From the NCBI RefSeq assembly GCF_905120465.1, contig NZ_CAJHOF010000005.1, positions 1 to 64,000 on the forward strand: a stretch of 64,000 nucleotides of DNA, given 5' to 3'. A program made the position numbers and the translations under genes. Numbering within the stretch: position 1 is the stretch's first letter; each line of letters opens with the position of its first letter. Shown here in pieces: positions 9,471 to 19,199 of this stretch. The notes below the pieces were generated by a model. That model made no database searches. It worked only from the letters and a program-made list of their open reading frames with translations, and was not told the DNA's origin. This stretch comes from Campylobacter majalis (GTDB taxonomy: Bacteria; Campylobacterota; Campylobacteria; Campylobacterales; Campylobacteraceae).

Positions 9471-11222
9471 ATGAAAAGGGTGTTATCTACTAGTATTTTA
9501 GCGGCTTTATGTATTGCTTCAGCAAACGCTGATGGACTAGTTCACAGGATATATGTAGGCACATTTACACAGGGTAAAAATGATGCAGGTGTTGATATGG
9601 TTGCAAAAAAACTTCAAGATAGCATTGAGGGTATTTCAGATTTAGTTGAAGTAGATAGATATATTTCTGATAAAAAAGAAATTGTTTTGTTTGTTGATAC
9701 AAAGCCTGTTAGTGTAACTCAGGCTCGTGAGCTATTAAAAACAATTAGACAATTTCCAAATCATGATGATGCTTTTATGAAAATAAAAACAAAGCGTGAT
9801 TATGAGATTGTAACCGAAAACATGAAAGCTAGAGGCGAGACTGCTTCTGCAGTTGTTGAAGATACGTTGGCAGAGCCTATTGCTGAAACAAGTATGACAC
9901 CAGAACCTAGTTTTGTTAAGCCTGTATCAAATGCCAATCAAGAGCCACTAAGCTTAAACAGTGTCATTAAAACAGTTTTAAGTGAAAATCCAAATCTAAA
10001 AGCCAGTGAATATAACTATTTGCAAGTTGGCAAAGATTTAAAAATAGCTAAAAATGCTTACTATCCTACATTAGACGCGATGGCATATTTTGGACATGAA
10101 AATAAACGATTAGATAATGGCATAACCACAAACACTGGTTCAGGTAGAATTGGTGGTGCAAATATAACTTTGGTTGAAAATTTATATAATGGCGGTGCTG
10201 ATGCAAATAGAATTAAATCACAAAGCCATAGACTTGATTCGGCTGCTTATTCTGTTGCTCAGACCGCAGATAGACTAGCACTACAAATGGTTGATGCATA
10301 TCTAGCATTGGTTGAGGCAAAAAGAATCCTTGATATAGAAAACGAAAATGTTGTAAATCATGAAAATATTCATACTCAAATTAGAGATAGAGCACAATCT
10401 GGCTTTGGTGTTGCCTCTGAAGAGAGACAAGCCGGTTCACGCTATACCTTGGCTCAATCAAATCTGATTGCGGCACAGAATAACTATGATGATGCAATAG
10501 CGACATTTGAAAAATTATATGGGCATAAAATAAACCCTGAAAATTTACATATGCCAGAATTTAATATCAATCTTCCGGCAACAGAAAAAGAAGTATATGA
10601 TAAAGCTATGCTTTGTAATCCATCTTTATTGGTTCAAAGATCAAATATAGCAATGTCTGAATCTGTTGTAAAAGAGAAAAATGCTCCATTTAGACCTAAG
10701 CTTGATTTGGAAGTTTCTGGTAACTATGAGCATACTGATGTTTTAGATAATAACAAAGAAGAGGCTACATTTGATACGCTAGTAAGACTTAGATACAATC
10801 TTTACAATAAAGGAATAGATAAGCTTGAAAAAGAAAAAAGCAAGTTAGCAGTGTCTCAAGAACAACAAAATCTTGATGTTTTGATGAGAGATTTGACAGA
10901 GAGCTTGAAATTTTCATGGCAAAATTATGTATTGGAAGAAAAAAGAATGGCATATTTATTGCAGCACGTTGAGTATGCCAAAGCTACACTTGATTCATAT
11001 CAGGACGAGTTTAGGATAGGTCGCAGAGACTTAATTAATTTGCTTGATGCAGAAACGGAATATAATTCAGCACTAAAAGAGATAACAAGCAATGAAAGAG
11101 CGTTGCTTTATGCAAAATATAGGCTACTTGATAACATGGGTCTGATTTCAGATAGCTTTGAGCCTGGTTTTGCAAAGAGATATATTCAAGGTGCATGCAG
11201 CATAGAAAACGACCTTAAGTAA
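9471..11222 (+). CDS. lapE: TolC-family outer membrane channel of a type I secretion system (LapE-like)
   Basis: A 583-residue precursor with a signal peptide (cleavage likely after SANA, residue 20). A periplasmic domain of roughly 100 residues (HRIYVGTF...) resembles a SPOR-like fold, and then comes a TolC/OEP region from about residue 155 to the end with the typical repeated helical halves. TolC proteins form the trimeric beta-barrel and periplasmic tunnel through which unfolded substrates leave the cell. The N-terminal extra domain makes it longer than classic TolC (about 470). It is first in an operon with protease, receptor, ABC and HlyD-like genes, which assigns it to a Lap-type adhesin exporter. 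Confidence 0.85.
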   Translation: MKRVLSTSILAALCIASANADGLVHRIYVGTFTQGKNDAGVDMVAKKLQDSIEGISDLVEVDRYISDKKEIVLFVDTKPVSVTQARELLKTIRQFPNHDDAFMKIKTKRDYEIVTENMKARGETASAVVEDTLAEPIAETSMTPEPSFVKPVSNANQEPLSLNSVIKTVLSENPNLKASEYNYLQVGKDLKIAKNAYYPTLDAMAYFGHENKRLDNGITTNTGSGRIGGANITLVENLYNGGADANRIKSQSHRLDSAAYSVAQTADRLALQMVDAYLALVEAKRILDIENENVVNHENIHTQIRDRAQSGFGVASEERQAGSRYTLAQSNLIAAQNNYDDAIATFEKLYGHKINPENLHMPEFNINLPATEKEVYDKAMLCNPSLLVQRSNIAMSESVVKEKNAPFRPKLDLEVSGNYEHTDVLDNNKEEATFDTLVRLRYNLYNKGIDKLEKEKSKLAVSQEQQNLDVLMRDLTESLKFSWQNYVLEEKRMAYLLQHVEYAKATLDSYQDEFRIGRRDLINLLDAETEYNSALKEITSNERALLYAKYRLLDNMGLISDSFEPGFAKRYIQGACSIENDLK

Positions 11223-11227
11223 TATAT

Positions 11228-11890
11228 ATGACCCTGTATCTAGGGATGTTAAAAAGGGCAAAAAATTTTGCCCTTTCTGTGTTTTTGGTAATTGTCCTAG
11301 CAAATGATTTCATAAAATCATCTGATATTTCGCAAATGCAAAAGCAGTATGGTGATAGTGCAAGACGACGTTTGGTGGCATTAAATTCTCTAATGGTTTC
11401 ACTTAAAGATGCAAGCGAACAAGAAAAGTTAAAAAAAGTAAATGATTTTTTTAATTCATTTAGATGGGTTGATGATATGCAAATATGGGGAGTAAAGGAT
11501 TACTGGGCTACTAGGATGGAATTTATAGGCAAGGGTGCTGGAGATTGTGAAGATTATGTTATTGCTAAATACTTTACATTAAAGCAACTTGGTGTGCCAA
11601 CAAACAAGCTATATTTTACATATGTAAAAGCACTTAAATACAATCAAGCTCATATGGTTTTGTCTTACTATGAAACTCCAAAATCAATACCTTTAGTTCT
11701 TGATAATATAAACGGACAGATTAAAATAGCAACACAAAGAAACGATTTATTACCAGTTTATAGTTTTAATGGTGATTCTTTATTTTTAGCAAAACAAGAG
11801 GGATTGGGGCAGATCGTGCCTGGCGGAAATAAAAAACAAAATCCAAAATGGATAGAATTAGTAGATAGAATGAAAAAAGAGGGACTATGA
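11228..11890 (+). CDS. lapG: Periplasmic transglutaminase-like cysteine protease (BTLCP, LapG-like)
   Basis: BTLCP proteases of the LapG type clip the N-terminal retention module of large adhesins and so release them from the outer membrane. The triad is visible as Cys107 (GAGDCEDY), His142 (QAHMVL) and Asp159 (LVLDN); the 35 and 17 residue spacings are close to those of Pseudomonas LapG. The DCEDY acidic cluster is the calcium-binding region in that family. A signal peptide spans about residues 7-25. The true start may be the in-frame ATG at 11246 (residue 7), because the signal sequence begins there. A strong RNA hairpin overlaps this start region. The 3' end overlaps lapD by 4 bp. Confidence 0.88.
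   Translation: MTLYLGMLKRAKNFALSVFLVIVLANDFIKSSDISQMQKQYGDSARRRLVALNSLMVSLKDASEQEKLKKVNDFFNSFRWVDDMQIWGVKDYWATRMEFIGKGAGDCEDYVIAKYFTLKQLGVPTNKLYFTYVKALKYNQAHMVLSYYETPKSIPLVLDNINGQIKIATQRNDLLPVYSFNGDSLFLAKQEGLGQIVPGGNKKQNPKWIELVDRMKKEGL
11253..11276 (+). terminator. Perfect hairpin at the lapE-lapG junction (possible attenuator)
   Basis: Two 11-nt arms (AAAGGGCAAAA and TTTTGCCCTTT) flank a 2-nt centre, and CTGTGTTTTT follows. It lies 31 bp after the lapE stop and inside the 5' end of lapG. It could partly terminate transcription or mask lapG translation. The arms also encode the signal peptide, which is unusual. Confidence 0.6.
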
Positions 11891-13830
11891 CATTATTTAG
11901 ACAGATTATGATAGCTATTGTATTTTTTGGCTTGATTGTATTTAGTGTTGTTGGGTATTTAAATTTTAATAGTTTAAATAACTACATAAATGATCAGCTT
12001 GGCACGAACGCTAGACATACAGCAAATTCTCTTGGCTTATCAATAAAATCCGTTGCTGATATGGATGATTTGTCCATGGTTGAAACTATGATGAATTCTA
12101 TATTTGATAGCGGTTATTATCAAATGATACGTTTAGATGACATAGATGATAAGGTATTGCTTGAAAATTCTCAAGAGATAAATGTTGATGCTATACCTGA
12201 TTGGTTTATAAATATGATTAGGTTAAATGCACCAATTCAAAGCAGTGAGATAATGACTGGTTGGGCAAAATTTGGAACACTCTATGTTCAAGGAAATACA
12301 GGTTTAGCGTATTATCAGCTATATAATGGCATGAAGGATATTTTTTACGCACTTTTGGCTATGTTTATAGCCATGCTTATATGTACATATTTTGCATTAA
12401 AAGCGATATTTAGACCTTTAAACGAAGTTCGAAAACAAGCCGAGGCGATACGAGATAGTAATTTTATAATTCAAGAACGCATACCTTATACTAAAGATTT
12501 AAAAGATATAGTTGTAGCCATGAATTCAATGGTTTATAAAGTAAAAGCCATATTTGATAAAGAGTCAGATACATTTAATAAATATCAAGAGATACTATAT
12601 AAAGACAGCCTAAGTGGGCTTTATAATAGGCGATATTTTCAAACAAAGGTGTCTGAGTATATAAATACTGAGGAGTATTCAAGTGGTACTATAATGCTGC
12701 TTGGTTTTAAGGATTTTATTGCCCTTAAGAAGAGTTTGGGCTTTGAAAAATGGCAAAGTTTGACAATTAAAATATCTCATATACTACAAGAAAAGATTGA
12801 TACTAGTAAATACTTTGGTTTTGCATCAAAGCTAAATGATAACGATTTTTCTGTTTTGCTTGTGGGCACTAGTTCAAAGCAACTTAGTGAAATGTCGAAA
12901 TTTATAATGAATGAAATAAAAAATAGCTTTAAAATTTTTGGTATAGACGAGAATGAAAATTTAGTCAATATGGCTTTGGTTGATTATCATCCAAAAACAG
13001 ATATGAGATCGCTGATGACTATTGCTGATGTTACTTTAGCAAATGCTAGAATGGACGGAAATTTCTGCATACGCGAGTATAACTTAAATACAAATTCAAT
13101 CTTGCTTGGCAAAGAAAAATATCGTGAATTAATCATGAAATCTATGCAAAACGATATGTTTAAATTTGCTGGACAAAATGTTATTGATGGCGATAAAATA
13201 GAACATACTGAGATATATTTAAGACTTGTTGATGAGTATGGCAAATGGCAAATGGCATCATATTTTATGCCAATGGTTAGTGAGCTTGAGCTTGGAGCTA
13301 CACTTGATTTACATGTGCTAGAGCGTGCATCAAATATGATAATAAATCAAAATATAAACAATGCAATAGCTATAAATTTAGGCAAGGATATAATTACATC
13401 TGATGTAAATTTCATAAAATTATGTGCCTTGTTTAAAAAAATTGGCTCAAATTTAAAAAACAAAGTGTATATTGAAATTCCAAACAAGGACGATATTGCC
13501 ATTGGAAGCATAGTTAAATTAACAAATGCAATGAAAGAATTTGGATTAAAATTAGGGCTTGATCATTTTGAATTTAATCAAAGTGGAACAAATAGACTTA
13601 AACAAATCAATCCAAGTTATGTGAAAATACGTGCAGCAAATTTGACTGAATTTTTTGATGGCAAAGATATTGATGAAGTAAAAAAGAGTCTAGATATTAT
13701 TATGGGATTAAGGAATATTAAGATAATAGGAATAGGTGTTGAAAGTCAAGAGCAAAAAGATAGACTGCTAGAGTTTGGCATAACAAGTATGCAAGGAATT
13801 TACATAGATGAGACTAAAAATATCGGATAA
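11887..13830 (+). CDS. lapD: LapD-like inner-membrane c-di-GMP receptor with degenerate GGDEF and EAL domains
   Basis: A 647-residue protein with the LapD/MoxY layout: helix 1 at about 8-27, a periplasmic domain of about 120 residues, helix 2 at about 152-173, then HAMP, GGDEF and EAL domains. The periplasmic GW pair puts Trp126 where LapD uses a tryptophan to bind LapG. The GGDEF signature is replaced by NDNDF (317-321) and the EAL motif by EIYLR (about 442-446), so neither synthesis nor hydrolysis is expected. In known systems, c-di-GMP bound to the EAL domain makes the periplasmic domain sequester LapG and keeps adhesin on the surface. The ATGA overlap with lapG suggests balanced production. 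Confidence 0.88.
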   Translation: MTLFRQIMIAIVFFGLIVFSVVGYLNFNSLNNYINDQLGTNARHTANSLGLSIKSVADMDDLSMVETMMNSIFDSGYYQMIRLDDIDDKVLLENSQEINVDAIPDWFINMIRLNAPIQSSEIMTGWAKFGTLYVQGNTGLAYYQLYNGMKDIFYALLAMFIAMLICTYFALKAIFRPLNEVRKQAEAIRDSNFIIQERIPYTKDLKDIVVAMNSMVYKVKAIFDKESDTFNKYQEILYKDSLSGLYNRRYFQTKVSEYINTEEYSSGTIMLLGFKDFIALKKSLGFEKWQSLTIKISHILQEKIDTSKYFGFASKLNDNDFSVLLVGTSSKQLSEMSKFIMNEIKNSFKIFGIDENENLVNMALVDYHPKTDMRSLMTIADVTLANARMDGNFCIREYNLNTNSILLGKEKYRELIMKSMQNDMFKFAGQNVIDGDKIEHTEIYLRLVDEYGKWQMASYFMPMVSELELGATLDLHVLERASNMIINQNINNAIAINLGKDIITSDVNFIKLCALFKKIGSNLKNKVYIEIPNKDDIAIGSIVKLTNAMKEFGLKLGLDHFEFNQSGTNRLKQINPSYVKIRAANLTEFFDGKDIDEVKKSLDIIMGLRNIKIIGIGVESQEQKDRLLEFGITSMQGIYIDETKNIG

Positions 13831-13833
13831 AAT

Positions 13834-15969
13834 ATGGTAGGCGATAAAAAAGATGAATTACTAGAGTGTTTGGTAATTTTTACTAAACTACATAATAACC
13901 CATATAGTGCTGACGCATTAACAATTGGTTTGCCAGTAAAAGATGGTGAAGAGGTCGAGCTTTTTTCTTTAAGTGGCTCAAAATCTTTGTTCTCGCGTGC
14001 GGCATTAAGAGCTGGATTTGCTTCTAGTTTGGTTAGGAAAAATTTAGATCAAATATCTCCACTTGTGCTTCCATGCATACTTATGCTAAGAGGCAAAAAA
14101 GCATGTATTTTACAAAGCATAAGCACAGATAGACGCACTGCAAACATCATTGTGCCTGATATTGCAAATGGTTCAAGCACGATAGATTTGGATAAATTAA
14201 ATCAAGAGTATCTAGGTTATGCATACTATTTAAAGCGTGAATTTGCTCCAGATGAGCGAGAAGCCTCGCATTTACTTGAAAATACAAAAGAGCATTGGTT
14301 TTGGGGGACTTTGAAAAAATCTAAGAAAATTTATATCGATGTTATTGTCGCTAGTGTGATTATTAATTTATTTGTTTTAGCTAGTCCGCTATTTACTATG
14401 AATGTTTATGATAGAGTTGTTCCAAACAATGCAACTGAAACGCTTTGGGTGCTTGCAATTGGTGTTTTGGTTGTGTATTTGATAGATTTTTTCTTGAAAT
14501 TTACAAGGTCGTATTTTTTAGAAATCGCTGGCAAAAAGAGCGATATTATTATGAGTTCTATGCTTTTTGAAAGAGTTATGGATCTAAAACTTACAAATCG
14601 TCCAAAATCCGTTGGCTCATTTGCCTCAAATTTGCGAGAATTTGATACTATAAGAAATTTTTTCTCATCAGCCTCTTTGGCTGCCATTGTTGATTTGCCG
14701 TTTGCTATTATATTTTTGATTACTGTTTATTTTATTGGTGGATACTTAGTTGTTGTTCCAATAGTTACAATGATAATTATTTTGATCTATACTTTATCTA
14801 TAAAAAATCCACTTCAAAATGCTATCAAAAGCACATTTGAAGCAAGTGCTGCTAAAAATGGCATTTTAATAGAGAGTCTAAATGGATTAGAGACCATAAA
14901 AACACTTGGTGCTAGTGGAAATGTCCAGTGGAACTGGGAAGAAGCTACTGGCGAAATTTCAAACAGAAGTATAAAATCAAAAATGATAACCACCTCTATT
15001 ACAACAGTAACGGCATTTTTGGTACATATTAATACAGTTGCTTTGGTTGTGCTTGGTGTATATATGATAAAAGATACTGCACTAACTATGGGTGGTTTGA
15101 TAGCCACGGTTATATTAGCGGGTCGTGCTATAGCACCTATGGGTCAGGTTGCATCTTTGATAGCAAATTACGAGCAGACGAAAACTGCTTATAAAGGCAT
15201 TGACAATATAATGAATATGCCAGTAGAACGTCCAGAAGGCAAAAAATTTGTAAGGCGAAATACGTTTGATGGCAAAATAGAATTTAAAAATGTCAGTTTT
15301 ACTTATCCAGAAACTGTCAAAGGATCGCTTGATAGGGTTAGCTTTACAATACAAGCCGGAGAAAAGGTCGGTATAATAGGGCGTAATGGTTCTGGTAAAA
15401 CAACTATACAAAAGCTTATGTTAGGGTTATATTCTCCAACTGAAGGTTCAGTTTTGATAGATGGTATAGATATAAACCAAATAGACCCAGCAGATTTGCG
15501 TAGAAACATAGGGTATGTTCCACAAGATGTGCTATTATTTAAAGGAACTGTGCGTGAAAACATAGTGCAAAAAGCACCTTATGCTGACGATATGCAAATA
15601 ATTAGAGCAGCAAAAATCAGTGGTGTGGATGAGTATGTTAATATGCATCCACTTGGTTTTGACATGCCGGTTCTTGAAAGAGGTGATGGCATAAGTGGTG
15701 GGCAGCGACAAAGTATCGCATTGGCTAGAGCATTTTTACTTGACAGTCCAATTGTATTACTAGATGAGCCTACAAACTCACTAGATAATACAATAGAAAA
15801 TAAGCTAAAAGCAAATTTAAAGACAAGTATTGCAAATAAAACAATGGTATTAATTACTCATAAAACATCAATGCTTGATTTGGTTGATAGACTTATAGTG
15901 ATTGATAATGGTAAAATTTTACTAGATGGCAAACGTGATGACGTTTTGGCAAAATTGAGTGGGAAATAA
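13834..15969 (+). CDS. lapB: Type I secretion ABC transporter with C39-like domain (LapB-like)
   Basis: A 711-residue inner-membrane ATPase that powers export. Residues 1 to about 130 form a C39 peptidase-like domain without the catalytic DCG and His motifs, so it should bind rather than cleave the substrate, as in HlyB and LapB. A six-helix transmembrane domain (about 165-430) follows, then the ATPase with Walker A GRNGSGKT (516-523), signature ISGGQ (620-624) and Walker B IVLLDEP (640-646). It begins 3 bp after lapD and is closely followed by the HlyD-like gene. Confidence 0.92.
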   Translation: MVGDKKDELLECLVIFTKLHNNPYSADALTIGLPVKDGEEVELFSLSGSKSLFSRAALRAGFASSLVRKNLDQISPLVLPCILMLRGKKACILQSISTDRRTANIIVPDIANGSSTIDLDKLNQEYLGYAYYLKREFAPDEREASHLLENTKEHWFWGTLKKSKKIYIDVIVASVIINLFVLASPLFTMNVYDRVVPNNATETLWVLAIGVLVVYLIDFFLKFTRSYFLEIAGKKSDIIMSSMLFERVMDLKLTNRPKSVGSFASNLREFDTIRNFFSSASLAAIVDLPFAIIFLITVYFIGGYLVVVPIVTMIIILIYTLSIKNPLQNAIKSTFEASAAKNGILIESLNGLETIKTLGASGNVQWNWEEATGEISNRSIKSKMITTSITTVTAFLVHINTVALVVLGVYMIKDTALTMGGLIATVILAGRAIAPMGQVASLIANYEQTKTAYKGIDNIMNMPVERPEGKKFVRRNTFDGKIEFKNVSFTYPETVKGSLDRVSFTIQAGEKVGIIGRNGSGKTTIQKLMLGLYSPTEGSVLIDGIDINQIDPADLRRNIGYVPQDVLLFKGTVRENIVQKAPYADDMQIIRAAKISGVDEYVNMHPLGFDMPVLERGDGISGGQRQSIALARAFLLDSPIVLLDEPTNSLDNTIENKLKANLKTSIANKTMVLITHKTSMLDLVDRLIVIDNGKILLDGKRDDVLAKLSGK

Positions 15970-15970
15970 T

Positions 15971-17443
15971 ATGGGCGATATAAAACAAAATAGTAACGAT
16001 AATCAGATTGTGCAAGTAGCACAAGATGATACCAAAACAACAATTAGCACAGAAGAGCAAAAAAGTATTAGTAATAAAATTTATGCAGACGCCAAAGATA
16101 TAAGGCAGAAAATTCAAAATCAAAACTATGATGCATATGATATTCGTTTTATGTCGAGTTTGTCTGAGGCTGTTTTGGCAAAAGCTCCTTCTAATTCTAG
16201 GAAAATTTTGTATGCTATATTTATTACTGTGGCATGGTTGATGATATGGGCATCATATGCAAAAATAGACGAAATAACAAGAGGAACTGGCAAGATTATA
16301 CCATCTGGCAAAAATCAAACGGTTCAAAATTTAGAGGGCGGTATTGTTCAAGAAATTTTAATCAAAGAGGGTGATGAGGTTAAAAAAGATCAAATTATTT
16401 TAAAAATAGATAATAAAAATTTCTCAAGTAGCTATGGAGAATCACAACTCAGATTGCAAGAGCTACATGCTAAATTTTTAAGACTTGATGCAGAAGCAAA
16501 TGATAAAGTTTTTGATTTTAATGAAACTCGTGATATAAATAATTCAAAAGCTATAATGTATGAGCTTAGTCTTTATGACTCAAACAAGGCTCAATTAAAT
16601 GAGCAAATTAGAATTTTAAATGAACAACTAAGGCAAAGAGAGAGTGAATTAAACGAGCTAAGAAATAAAATTTCTCAAACTCAAACAAGTTACCAACTTG
16701 CAGTAAAAGAGAGGGATATTATGGAGCCACTCTTTAAAAAGAGTTTGGTTAGTGAGGTTGAATTCTTGCAGTTACAAAGACGCCTAAATGACTTAAGAGG
16801 CGAGTTGGAAGCAGCTAGATTATCTGTGCCTAGAGTTCAATCAACCATAAATGAGGTTCAAAACAAAATAACAGAAGCAAAACTTGCATTTACTAATAAT
16901 GCAAAAAAAGAGCTAAATGAAGTATCGGCTGAAATGGCTAGAATAAACGAATCTCAAATAAATTTAAGCGATAGAGTTGAAAGAACTTACGTCCGATCTC
17001 CAGTTGATGGAATAGTTAGTAAATTGATGATTCATACAATATCTGGCGTAATTAAGCCTGGCGAAAGTATAGCAGAGATAGTGCCACTTGATGATAAATT
17101 GGTAGCCGAGGTTAAAGTTGTGCCGGCTGATGTTGCGTTTTTACGAACTGGTCTTCCGGCTAAAGTTAAATTTACGGCGTATGATTTTAGTATATATGGT
17201 GGTTTAGATGGCAATGTAACGCTTATAAGTGCCGATACTGAGACTAATGAAAAAACTGGAGAGAGCCACTATTTAGTGCGTGTAGAAACCGATAAGAACT
17301 ATCTTGGCACTGAAGATAAACCGCTTCGTATAAAGGTTGGTATGGTGGTTAGTGCAGATATTATCACTGGTAAAAAGACCATACTTGATTATCTTTTAAA
17401 ACCAATATTAAAAGCGAAAAATAACGCACTAACAGAGAGATGA
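15971..17443 (+). CDS. lapC: HlyD-family membrane fusion protein (LapC-like adaptor)
   Basis: A 490-residue adaptor linking the ABC transporter to the TolC-like channel. After a cytoplasmic tail of about 55 residues there is one membrane helix (about 59-80), a lipoyl/biotinyl half-motif (NLEGGIVQEILIKEGDEVKK), a long coiled coil (about 150-330), the second lipoyl half (RTYVRSPVDGIVS) and a C-terminal beta-barrel region. I choose the ATG at 15971, directly after the lapB stop, over an in-frame GTG at 15959. The stop overlaps the next start. Confidence 0.92.
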   Translation: MGDIKQNSNDNQIVQVAQDDTKTTISTEEQKSISNKIYADAKDIRQKIQNQNYDAYDIRFMSSLSEAVLAKAPSNSRKILYAIFITVAWLMIWASYAKIDEITRGTGKIIPSGKNQTVQNLEGGIVQEILIKEGDEVKKDQIILKIDNKNFSSSYGESQLRLQELHAKFLRLDAEANDKVFDFNETRDINNSKAIMYELSLYDSNKAQLNEQIRILNEQLRQRESELNELRNKISQTQTSYQLAVKERDIMEPLFKKSLVSEVEFLQLQRRLNDLRGELEAARLSVPRVQSTINEVQNKITEAKLAFTNNAKKELNEVSAEMARINESQINLSDRVERTYVRSPVDGIVSKLMIHTISGVIKPGESIAEIVPLDDKLVAEVKVVPADVAFLRTGLPAKVKFTAYDFSIYGGLDGNVTLISADTETNEKTGESHYLVRVETDKNYLGTEDKPLRIKVGMVVSADIITGKKTILDYLLKPILKAKNNALTER

Positions 17444-17955
17444 TGCAAACAATAGTTTATGATAAAAATTTTGAAGAATATGAAATTTTATCGTTTTTAG
17501 ATCGTGATTTGATTGTTGTAAAGGGTAGTGATGTCTGCGATGTTGTTAATAGTGATGTTAGCACACTTGTTTTTGCTAATGTTGAAAAGCAATATAGTCA
17601 ATTAAGTGAATATAAAAATCAAATCAGGAATTTTTATTTACCTAAAGAGATTAAAATAAACAAAGATAATATAACGATAGTTAAAATTGTAATACTTGGA
17701 TATGATGAGAGATTTGACAGAGTTGAGTTTAATACACAAATTTTAAATTTAAAAACTGCATATAAATACTCAATAACAAGTAATAGTATTGAGTTGATAT
17801 TTGTTGTTGATTGTAGTAGTATGATAGTTGCTGAGTTTTTAGGTAGTGTTTTGTATGAGTATTGCATTGATGAGTATAGTCAAAACAAGCAAATTTTTGT
17901 TTATGCAGATGGAGATTTGTTGTTTAATAAGAGATTAACAATCATGGAGGAATAG
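17440..17955 (+). CDS. Unknown 171-aa protein in the Lap-type secretion operon
   Basis: I do not recognise this protein. It has no signal peptide or clear membrane helix, is rich in Ile, Val, Asp and Tyr, and shows alternating strands and helices, which suggests a cytoplasmic alpha/beta fold. The start overlaps the lapC stop by 4 bp. The stop is followed at once by the regulator gene, whose ribosome binding site GGAGG lies inside this gene's end. The packing argues for a real gene with a job tied to secretion or its control. Its codon use looks like that of its neighbours. Confidence 0.75.
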   Translation: MMQTIVYDKNFEEYEILSFLDRDLIVVKGSDVCDVVNSDVSTLVFANVEKQYSQLSEYKNQIRNFYLPKEIKINKDNITIVKIVILGYDERFDRVEFNTQILNLKTAYKYSITSNSIELIFVVDCSSMIVAEFLGSVLYEYCIDEYSQNKQIFVYADGDLLFNKRLTIMEE

Positions 17956-17956
17956 A

Positions 17957-18580
17957 TTGAAAACTGTTTTGTTTACAAAAAATAATTCACTTTATAATCT
18001 TTGGAGTGGTTATAAATTTAAACACGATGTTAATATAACTTCTGGAAAAGCAGAATTTTTAAAGCAATTAAATAACAAGGATGTAATACTAGGCATAGAT
18101 GTTGATGCCGTGGATAATATAGTAGAGTTTGTTAAAAAAACATTGCAAGATTTTCAAGATAGTAAAATTTTTATTCTTGCTAATCAGCCTAATTTTGTTC
18201 AAGGCAAAGTACTGGTGTCTTTGGGTGTAAAAGCTTATGCTAACTCTCACATGCAAGAGATCCATTTTAATGATGCCATTACTACCATAAAAAACGGCAA
18301 TATCTGGCTGTATCCAGAATTTATTCAAAGCATGATACAAGAAATTGTTTTTGACTCTGACGTTGTTAAAAGTAATCAAAATGACATATATGATACTTTA
18401 AGCTCTCGCGAAAAACAAATAACTACTTTAATACAGCAAGGATTGAGCAATAAGGATATCTCAGAAAAACTTGGCATAACACAAAGAACAGTTAAGGCTC
18501 ACGCAACATCAATATATGCCAAAATGGGTGTAAAAGACAGGTTATCATTGGTTTTAGCTATACAAAATTTAAATGTTTAA
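17957..18580 (+). CDS. LuxR/CsgD-type transcription regulator with degenerate receiver domain
   Basis: A 207-residue protein with a C-terminal LuxR (NarL-type) helix-turn-helix at about 145-205, recognisable from SREKQITTLIQQGLSNKDI and TQRTVKAHATSIYAKMGV. The N-terminal 130 residues resemble a receiver domain but lack the usual acidic pair and phosphoacceptor Asp, as in the biofilm regulator CsgD. The start is TTG at 17957, chosen because GGAGG sits six bases upstream and no ATG fits. Its location suggests it controls this cluster or the adhesin gene, but that is inference. Confidence 0.85.
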   Translation: MKTVLFTKNNSLYNLWSGYKFKHDVNITSGKAEFLKQLNNKDVILGIDVDAVDNIVEFVKKTLQDFQDSKIFILANQPNFVQGKVLVSLGVKAYANSHMQEIHFNDAITTIKNGNIWLYPEFIQSMIQEIVFDSDVVKSNQNDIYDTLSSREKQITTLIQQGLSNKDISEKLGITQRTVKAHATSIYAKMGVKDRLSLVLAIQNLNV

Positions 18581-19199
18581 AATTTTGTTTATATTTTTAC
18601 TCGTAGCTTTTTTAAACGCTAAAAGTTATGAACTTTCAGATGAAAATTTAGCAAAATGCGACAATCAAATATGCAAAAATATATTAAATCACTATGCAAA
18701 TTTTATGCAAAAAATTAGTACTGAAAATTTTGAACGAAAACTAGAGCTTGTAAATTCATATATAAACACTATGCGTCCTCGTCATGATGATTACTATAAT
18801 AAAAATATTGATATTTGGAGCACTAGGGCAGAGTTTTTACGTAGTGCGGGAGGTGATTGTGAAGAGTATGCTATCAGTAAGTTAAAAAGCCTTAGAGATT
18901 TAGGTGTAAAAAATCAAGCTTGTTTATTGGTTGTAAAAGAAAAAATCATTGGTGGTTATCACATGGTTCTTGCCCTATGGAAAAAACAAGGTAGCGAACC
19001 AGTTATATTAGACAATCTTAGTTTTAAAATTTTGCCAATCTCTGCTAGATATGATTTAGAGCCAAAATATTGTTTAATGGACGGTAAATACTACAGACTT
19101 AAAGATAATGGCAAAAACCTAGAGACATTAAATATCCGTATGGATGCTTATGAAAAATATCTGCAAAAAGAGCAAAGTGAAAAATTTTGGAAACGTTAA
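18573..19199 (+). CDS. Second periplasmic BTLCP (LapG-type) cysteine protease
   Basis: A 208-residue precursor with a short signal peptide (residues 1-16, ending LNA) and the complete BTLCP triad: Cys96 (GGDCEEYA), His130 (YHMVLA) and Asp147 (VILDN). Spacings are 34 and 17, almost as in the first protease at 11228. Outside the motifs the two are quite different, and this one has extra cysteines (Cys29, Cys34, Cys117) that could form a disulfide. It overlaps the regulator gene by 8 bp. A second protease in one Lap-type locus is unusual; it might have a different substrate or site. Confidence 0.85.
   Translation: MFKILFIFLLVAFLNAKSYELSDENLAKCDNQICKNILNHYANFMQKISTENFERKLELVNSYINTMRPRHDDYYNKNIDIWSTRAEFLRSAGGDCEEYAISKLKSLRDLGVKNQACLLVVKEKIIGGYHMVLALWKKQGSEPVILDNLSFKILPISARYDLEPKYCLMDGKYYRLKDNGKNLETLNIRMDAYEKYLQKEQSEKFWKR

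Follow-up and report, generated by a model that had tools for sequence, protein, structure and literature searches.

A second LapG-family protease whose LapD-docking residues have diverged in the Lap-type adhesin locus of Campylobacter majalis

The LapD–LapG pair acts as an inside-out switch governed by cyclic di-GMP (c-di-GMP), with one protease per receptor. What, then, could be the role of a second protease in the Lap-type locus of Campylobacter majalis, which lies at positions 9471-19199 of the 64,000-nucleotide stretch of contig NZ_CAJHOF010000005.1 analysed here (the window) and ends with another member of the bacterial transglutaminase-like cysteine protease (BTLCP) family? We refer to the two proteases as LapG1 and LapG2. 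The initial annotation of this DNA had described a complete LapBCE-type exporter with the LapG–LapD switch, and Pfam and NCBIfam profile searches, by which gene identities were assigned, bore this out for all eight genes (Table 1). The genes lie on the plus strand, neighbours overlapping or being spaced by a few bp, and the LapG–LapD pair and type I exporter, together with a retention-module adhesin having a cleavage site and encoded elsewhere in the genome, make up a Lap system. Exactly two Peptidase_C93 genes were found in the host genome (1.95 Mb in 59 contigs), both of them in this locus. LapG2 appears to combine intact cutting machinery with an unconserved docking surface, which suggests a second, differently controlled way off surfaces, and we estimate a probability of roughly 50% that it cuts the same class of adhesin as LapG1 but escapes, or differently uses, control by LapD and c-di-GMP.

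With regard to family and fold, LapG2 was a LapG-type protein. Both proteases exceeded the gathering cut-off of 27 bits for the Peptidase_C93 profile, LapG1 with 55 bits and LapG2 with the score given in Table 1, and both fell below the strict 320-bit cut-off of the LapG equivalog NF045674, for which LapG2 reached 86 bits. Its match to LapG structures (4fgo, E 2.9e-18) was weaker than that of LapG1 (E 5.5e-51 for 4u65). The AlphaFold2 model of LapG2, with a predicted local distance difference test score (pLDDT) of 92, had the LapG fold and matched Legionella pneumophila LapG (4FGO) with a VIA Z score of 23.3 over 176 residues; LapG structures overall gave Z scores of 21-23, and the best structure other than a LapG gave 10.6. 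The Cys96/His130/Asp147 triad, previously noted as intact in this distinct second BTLCP, was invariant in the LapG2 orthologs. Using Pseudomonas fluorescens (Pf) numbering, the catalytic C135/H170/D187 were invariant in 121/121 sequences of both protease types, as were the calcium-binding D111/D134/E136 (121/121, including 75/75 of the LapG2 type). Pairwise ratios of nonsynonymous to synonymous divergence (dN/dS) of 0.015-0.14 showed that lapG2 is under purifying selection. Two further features noted earlier also stood, namely the predicted export, judged by reading the signal-peptide-like N-terminal segment in the sequence, and the extra cysteines C29, C34, C117 and C167 as compared with LapG1, in which the catalytic C107 is the sole Cys.

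A maximum-likelihood tree of the 121 sequences (46 LapG1-type and 75 LapG2-type) split into two clades with support of 100/99. The LapG1 clade included LapG of P. fluorescens and L. pneumophila as well as LapG1 of the window, while the LapG2 clade was nearly all from Campylobacterota and held no characterised LapG. Within the latter, LapG2 of Campylobacter and Sulfurospirillum formed a supported group (100/98) together with the second proteases of genomes G150-G152. Because of this separate clade and its deep split, LapG2 should be regarded as an old paralog and not as the result of a recent duplication. As a separate observation, lapG2 of loci L084-L092 showed a synonymous divergence of 0.10-0.27, compared with 0.04-0.06 for lapG1 in the same C. 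concisus-type pairs, which suggests that the 3' part of the locus has recombined.

Distribution was surveyed in 153 genomes of the family, 48 of the genus and 397 of the phylum. A C93 protease was present in 54 of the family genomes, and 18 of the 48 genus genomes carried LapG2 as one of two C93 proteases, the named members of this set being C. concisus strains and C. gastrosuis. Where both were on one contig they were spaced by about 7.3 kb, in the constant order HemN-TolC-LapG1-LapD-ABC-HlyD-DUF5416-LuxR-LapG2-tuf; the gene order from TolC to LapG2 that the initial annotation had proposed to search for in Campylobacter thus recurred in the two-protease genomes. Each LapG2-bearing genus genome also had LapG1 and one or more genes with a retention module, and two complete genus genomes without any C93/BTLCP protease were missing the retention modules too. 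In species of the genus with a single protease, LapG2 was always the missing one; one C. concisus lineage had lapG2 cleanly deleted with its flanks intact, no lapG2 remnant was found in the LapG2-minus loci, and the pattern of presence and absence required three changes on the tree of the ABC transporter. It is highly improbable, in our judgement, that LapG2 is a paralog left over in degenerate or redundant form, with little function, as could be argued from this clean loss, from its absence in several other species and from an apparent orphan LapG2 in genome G318, considering the low dN/dS and the triad and calcium site that are invariant across a phylum-wide clade.

In the phylum, the LapG2 profile matched 132 of the 397 genomes, about 75 of them with at least two matches, which need not mean LapG1 plus LapG2 since the profile also picks up LapG1. 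C93 and LapD_MoxY_N proteins were counted in 20 genomes selected by their LapG2-type hits. Those from Campylobacterota had 2-4 C93 proteases, mostly alongside a single strong LapD_MoxY_N protein (G168 having more), and Undibacterium and Methylophaga had one protease each. The pairing of two proteases had been thought undescribed and specific to Campylobacter. We found nothing relevant in the open literature, to which the search was confined, on LapG in Campylobacterota or on a second LapG, but genomes with at least two BTLCPs are common throughout Campylobacterota. A different arrangement was seen in G314 of the Sulfurospirillum group, having two LapG1–LapD pairs (C7:16783 and C8:12394) in place of LapG1 plus LapG2.

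What would LapG2 cut? Its linkage to an adhesin is well supported. The cluster of Sulfurospirillum SCADC has the order TolC-LapG1-LapD-ABC-HlyD-LuxR-adhesin-LapG2, with the lapG2 start overlapping the stop of the adhesin gene. This adhesin, an RTX/cadherin protein of 2491 aa, has a LapA retention module at its N-terminus followed by LEETAAG. Sulfurospirillum adhesins overlapped by lapG2 were RTX proteins of 2500-3100 aa with a retention module and E[E/A]TAAG, and the pairing recurred in the L109, L114, G328 and G413 clusters, a small retention-module protein sitting between adhesin and LapG2 in G413/L122. In the genome of the window a single retention-module adhesin was detected. It is encoded on a different contig (L045, G000:C11:5265-5615), and its site, LSQLEETAAGGD (ETAAG, the T being residue 105), agrees with LapG sites in the literature, for example DPTTALESTAAG (PMC3032553). 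Irrespective of LapG2, the sampled retention modules of the genus that were genuine had [E/A/D]TAAG or a closely similar site, and five exceptions, all retention-like proteins, occurred in both LapG2-plus and LapG2-minus groups. That LapG2 would instead act on another surface protein or at another site, as proposed earlier, we find unlikely. The deep sequence divergence between LapG1 and LapG2 speaks for it, as do LapG2-clade members in Sulfurimonas and Arcobacter that have no conserved adhesin neighbour, and a precedent may be Caulobacter HvyA, a BTLCP-like bacterial transglutaminase homolog with a specialised role, but in capsulation and not in a Lap adhesin system (PMC4241560). However, with one detected adhesin and the same site regardless of LapG2, and with LapG2 following a standard TAAG adhesin in Sulfurospirillum, a separate adhesin or site is neither needed nor supported.

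Three candidate correlates of LapG2 were also rejected. Cleavage sites in LapG2-plus and LapG2-minus species were alike except for LEETAAG as compared with LEATAAG, a difference that seems to follow phylogeny. The presence of two-partner-secretion adhesins did not track LapG2, and G048 has LapG2 and a single TAAG adhesin with no two-partner-secretion adhesin. LapG2-plus genomes had a higher number of adhesin genes in C. concisus, a difference that other species did not show; in C. concisus-type genomes there were 5-14 retention-module matches with LapG2 against 3-7 without it, a comparison confounded by lineage. Separately, L219, L220, L228, L245 and L254 of C. concisus-type genomes, with and without LapG2, encode retention-like proteins having no AAG cleavage site.

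The evidence for a difference in control comes from the surface at which LapG meets LapD. Four LapG positions crosslink to LapD, namely A169, Y176, V205 and Y206 (PMC4359373), and of 169 positions ranked for divergence between LapG1 and LapG2, V205, A169, Y206 and Y176 ranked 6, 11, 13 and 19 (Mann–Whitney p=0.0013). All four were retained in LapG1 and diverged in LapG2, including the LapD-coupled LapG2 of G150/G151, and position 205 was hydrophobic in 46/46 LapG1 but only 14/75 LapG2 sequences. LapD of the window matched 3pjw/4u64, the solved LapD output and GGDEF–EAL domains, and retained, within a GWAK loop, the Trp that anchors LapG. This loop is GWxK in most Campylobacter LapD, including that encoded at 11887-13830 of the window, with GWSQ in G018/G052, and GWxK departs from the GWxQ termed strictly conserved in the literature. 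Most LapG2 sequences of Campylobacter and Sulfurospirillum have Cys at position 207 (Pf numbering), on the LapD-contact strand, and a possible disulfide between this residue and C117 could stiffen the region that moves upon LapD binding.

We would picture the system as follows. LapG2 would be an active calcium-dependent periplasmic protease of an ancient paralog clade in Campylobacterota. An RTX adhesin would stall in the TolC channel by its LapA-type retention module until LapG2 cuts the TAAG-type site and frees it. LapG1 would be sequestered by c-di-GMP-loaded LapD through the conserved docking strand, and LapG2, having no conserved docking residues, would probably not be held by LapD in the canonical manner, its activity depending instead on how the gene is expressed, in the window coupled to luxR and in Sulfurospirillum to the adhesin, or on a different partner. 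One adhesin system would then have two release valves. In its most specific form, an ancient two-protease switch in which LapG1 releases the adhesin as c-di-GMP falls and a LapD-blind LapG2 does so on a cue other than c-di-GMP, through the LuxR-type regulator or together with the adhesin, we regard this scheme as tentative, with the odds somewhat against it.

Several findings weigh against this picture. Divergence at the contact sites is indirect and no proof against LapD binding LapG2, and the off-interface control site Y108 had diverged likewise (rank 2). The lapG2 gene overlaps lapD in G150/G151, with the order LapG1-LapD-LapG2, and in L108 it directly follows and overlaps another gene for a GGDEF–EAL protein, both of which fit c-di-GMP control by different docking. 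In Desulfovibrio vulgaris, DvhG and DvhD demonstrate that a LapG-like protease can be controlled by a different receptor with another docking mode (PMC13090378). A consistent Lap neighbour was sought for the LapG2-clade genes of Sulfurimonas and Arcobacter and none was found, and LapG2 has probably been lost repeatedly in the genus and is hence dispensable. Taken with the single main LapD of most two-protease genomes, some of these points raise the alternative that LapD, or a LapD-like receptor, controls LapG2 too, through a different surface, the two proteases competing or being released at different c-di-GMP levels. This we consider possible but doubtful, the four mapped contact sites being unconserved even in the LapD-coupled enzymes of G150/G151. 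The earlier suggestion that the second protease acts outside LapD control gained indirect support from the lost contact residues.

Compared with known systems, the locus shares with the Lap system of P. fluorescens the TolC-ABC-HlyD exporter, a LapG ortholog, the LapD Trp loop and a retention-module RTX adhesin with a TAAG site, but the locus in the window adds a LapG-family protease, the second one, in which the residues for LapD docking have diverged, and includes DUF5416 and LuxR genes, and its adhesin is encoded elsewhere in the genome. DvhG–DvhD likewise has a LapG-like protease outside the gammaproteobacterial scheme and TAAG-type sites, but with one protease and a dCache/HD-GYP receptor, whereas the window has a normal LapG–LapD pair and an extra protease (PMC13090378). 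LapA/MapA of P. fluorescens and FrhA/CraA of Vibrio cholerae also use Lap-type release, with two adhesins on one protease; the window has the reverse, two proteases with one detected adhesin. If LapG2 acts as proposed, adhesin release in Campylobacter, Sulfurospirillum and their kin would be governed by more than c-di-GMP and attachment gated through two independent inputs, and LapG1 and LapG2 would form a natural pair for probing the residues that make LapG receptor-controlled.

Table 1. Genes of the Lap-type locus, with window positions and supporting matches
Gene product	Position	Strand	Support
TolC/LapE-type outer-membrane channel	9471..11222	+	PF02321 149 bits; TIGR01844 222 bits
LapG1, LapG ortholog, periplasmic Ca-dependent cysteine protease (C107, H142, D159)	11228..11890	+	NF045674 234 bits; PDB 4u65
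LapD: LapD_MoxY periplasmic domain, degenerate GGDEF + EAL	11887..13830	+	PF16448 128.5 bits; NF045673 318 bits
LapB/LssB-type ABC exporter (type_I_sec_LssB)	13834..15969	+	TIGR03375 944 bits, cut-off 693
LapC/HlyD-type adaptor (type_I_hlyD)	15959..17443	+	TIGR01843 390 bits, cut-off 209
DUF5416 protein	17440..17955	+	PF17437 78 bits; model pLDDT 88
LuxR/CsgD/GacA-type regulator, C-terminal GerE helix-turn-helix	17957..18580	+	PF00196 64 bits
LapG2, second BTLCP protease (C96, H130, D147), predicted exported	18573..19199	+	PF06035 46.8 bits; LapG2 clade; LapG fold

At the end of the locus lapG2 and luxR overlap by 8 bp, the lapG2 ATG lying 8 bases upstream of the luxR end, so that lapG2 is likely co-translated with luxR and is probably the last gene of its transcription unit. 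The DUF5416 protein, encoded between HlyD and LuxR, was kept across the genus with a very divergent sequence and had no obvious signal peptide; its model is an Ig/cohesin-like beta-sandwich by weak matches in the PDB (Z at most 6.9).

In G318 (L257), LapG2 and the 3' end of an adhesin gene remain, with LapG1, LapD and the adhesin N-terminus gone in what looks like a large deletion; we rejected this genome as proof of LapD-free LapG2 function, and it is better taken as a deletion remnant. Proteins of about 205 aa near LapG2 in Sulfurospirillum (L122:9363-9974 and L116:7690-8316, with a similar one at G413:C15:47168) have a retention module that runs almost straight into a short C-terminal segment; they lack both repeats and a TAAG site and are possible channel plugs or decoys. 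Finally, just past tolC, within the first codons of lapG1, a perfect inverted repeat of 10 bp with a T-rich run behind it (11253-11276) resembles a terminator and could attenuate expression between tolC and lapG1.

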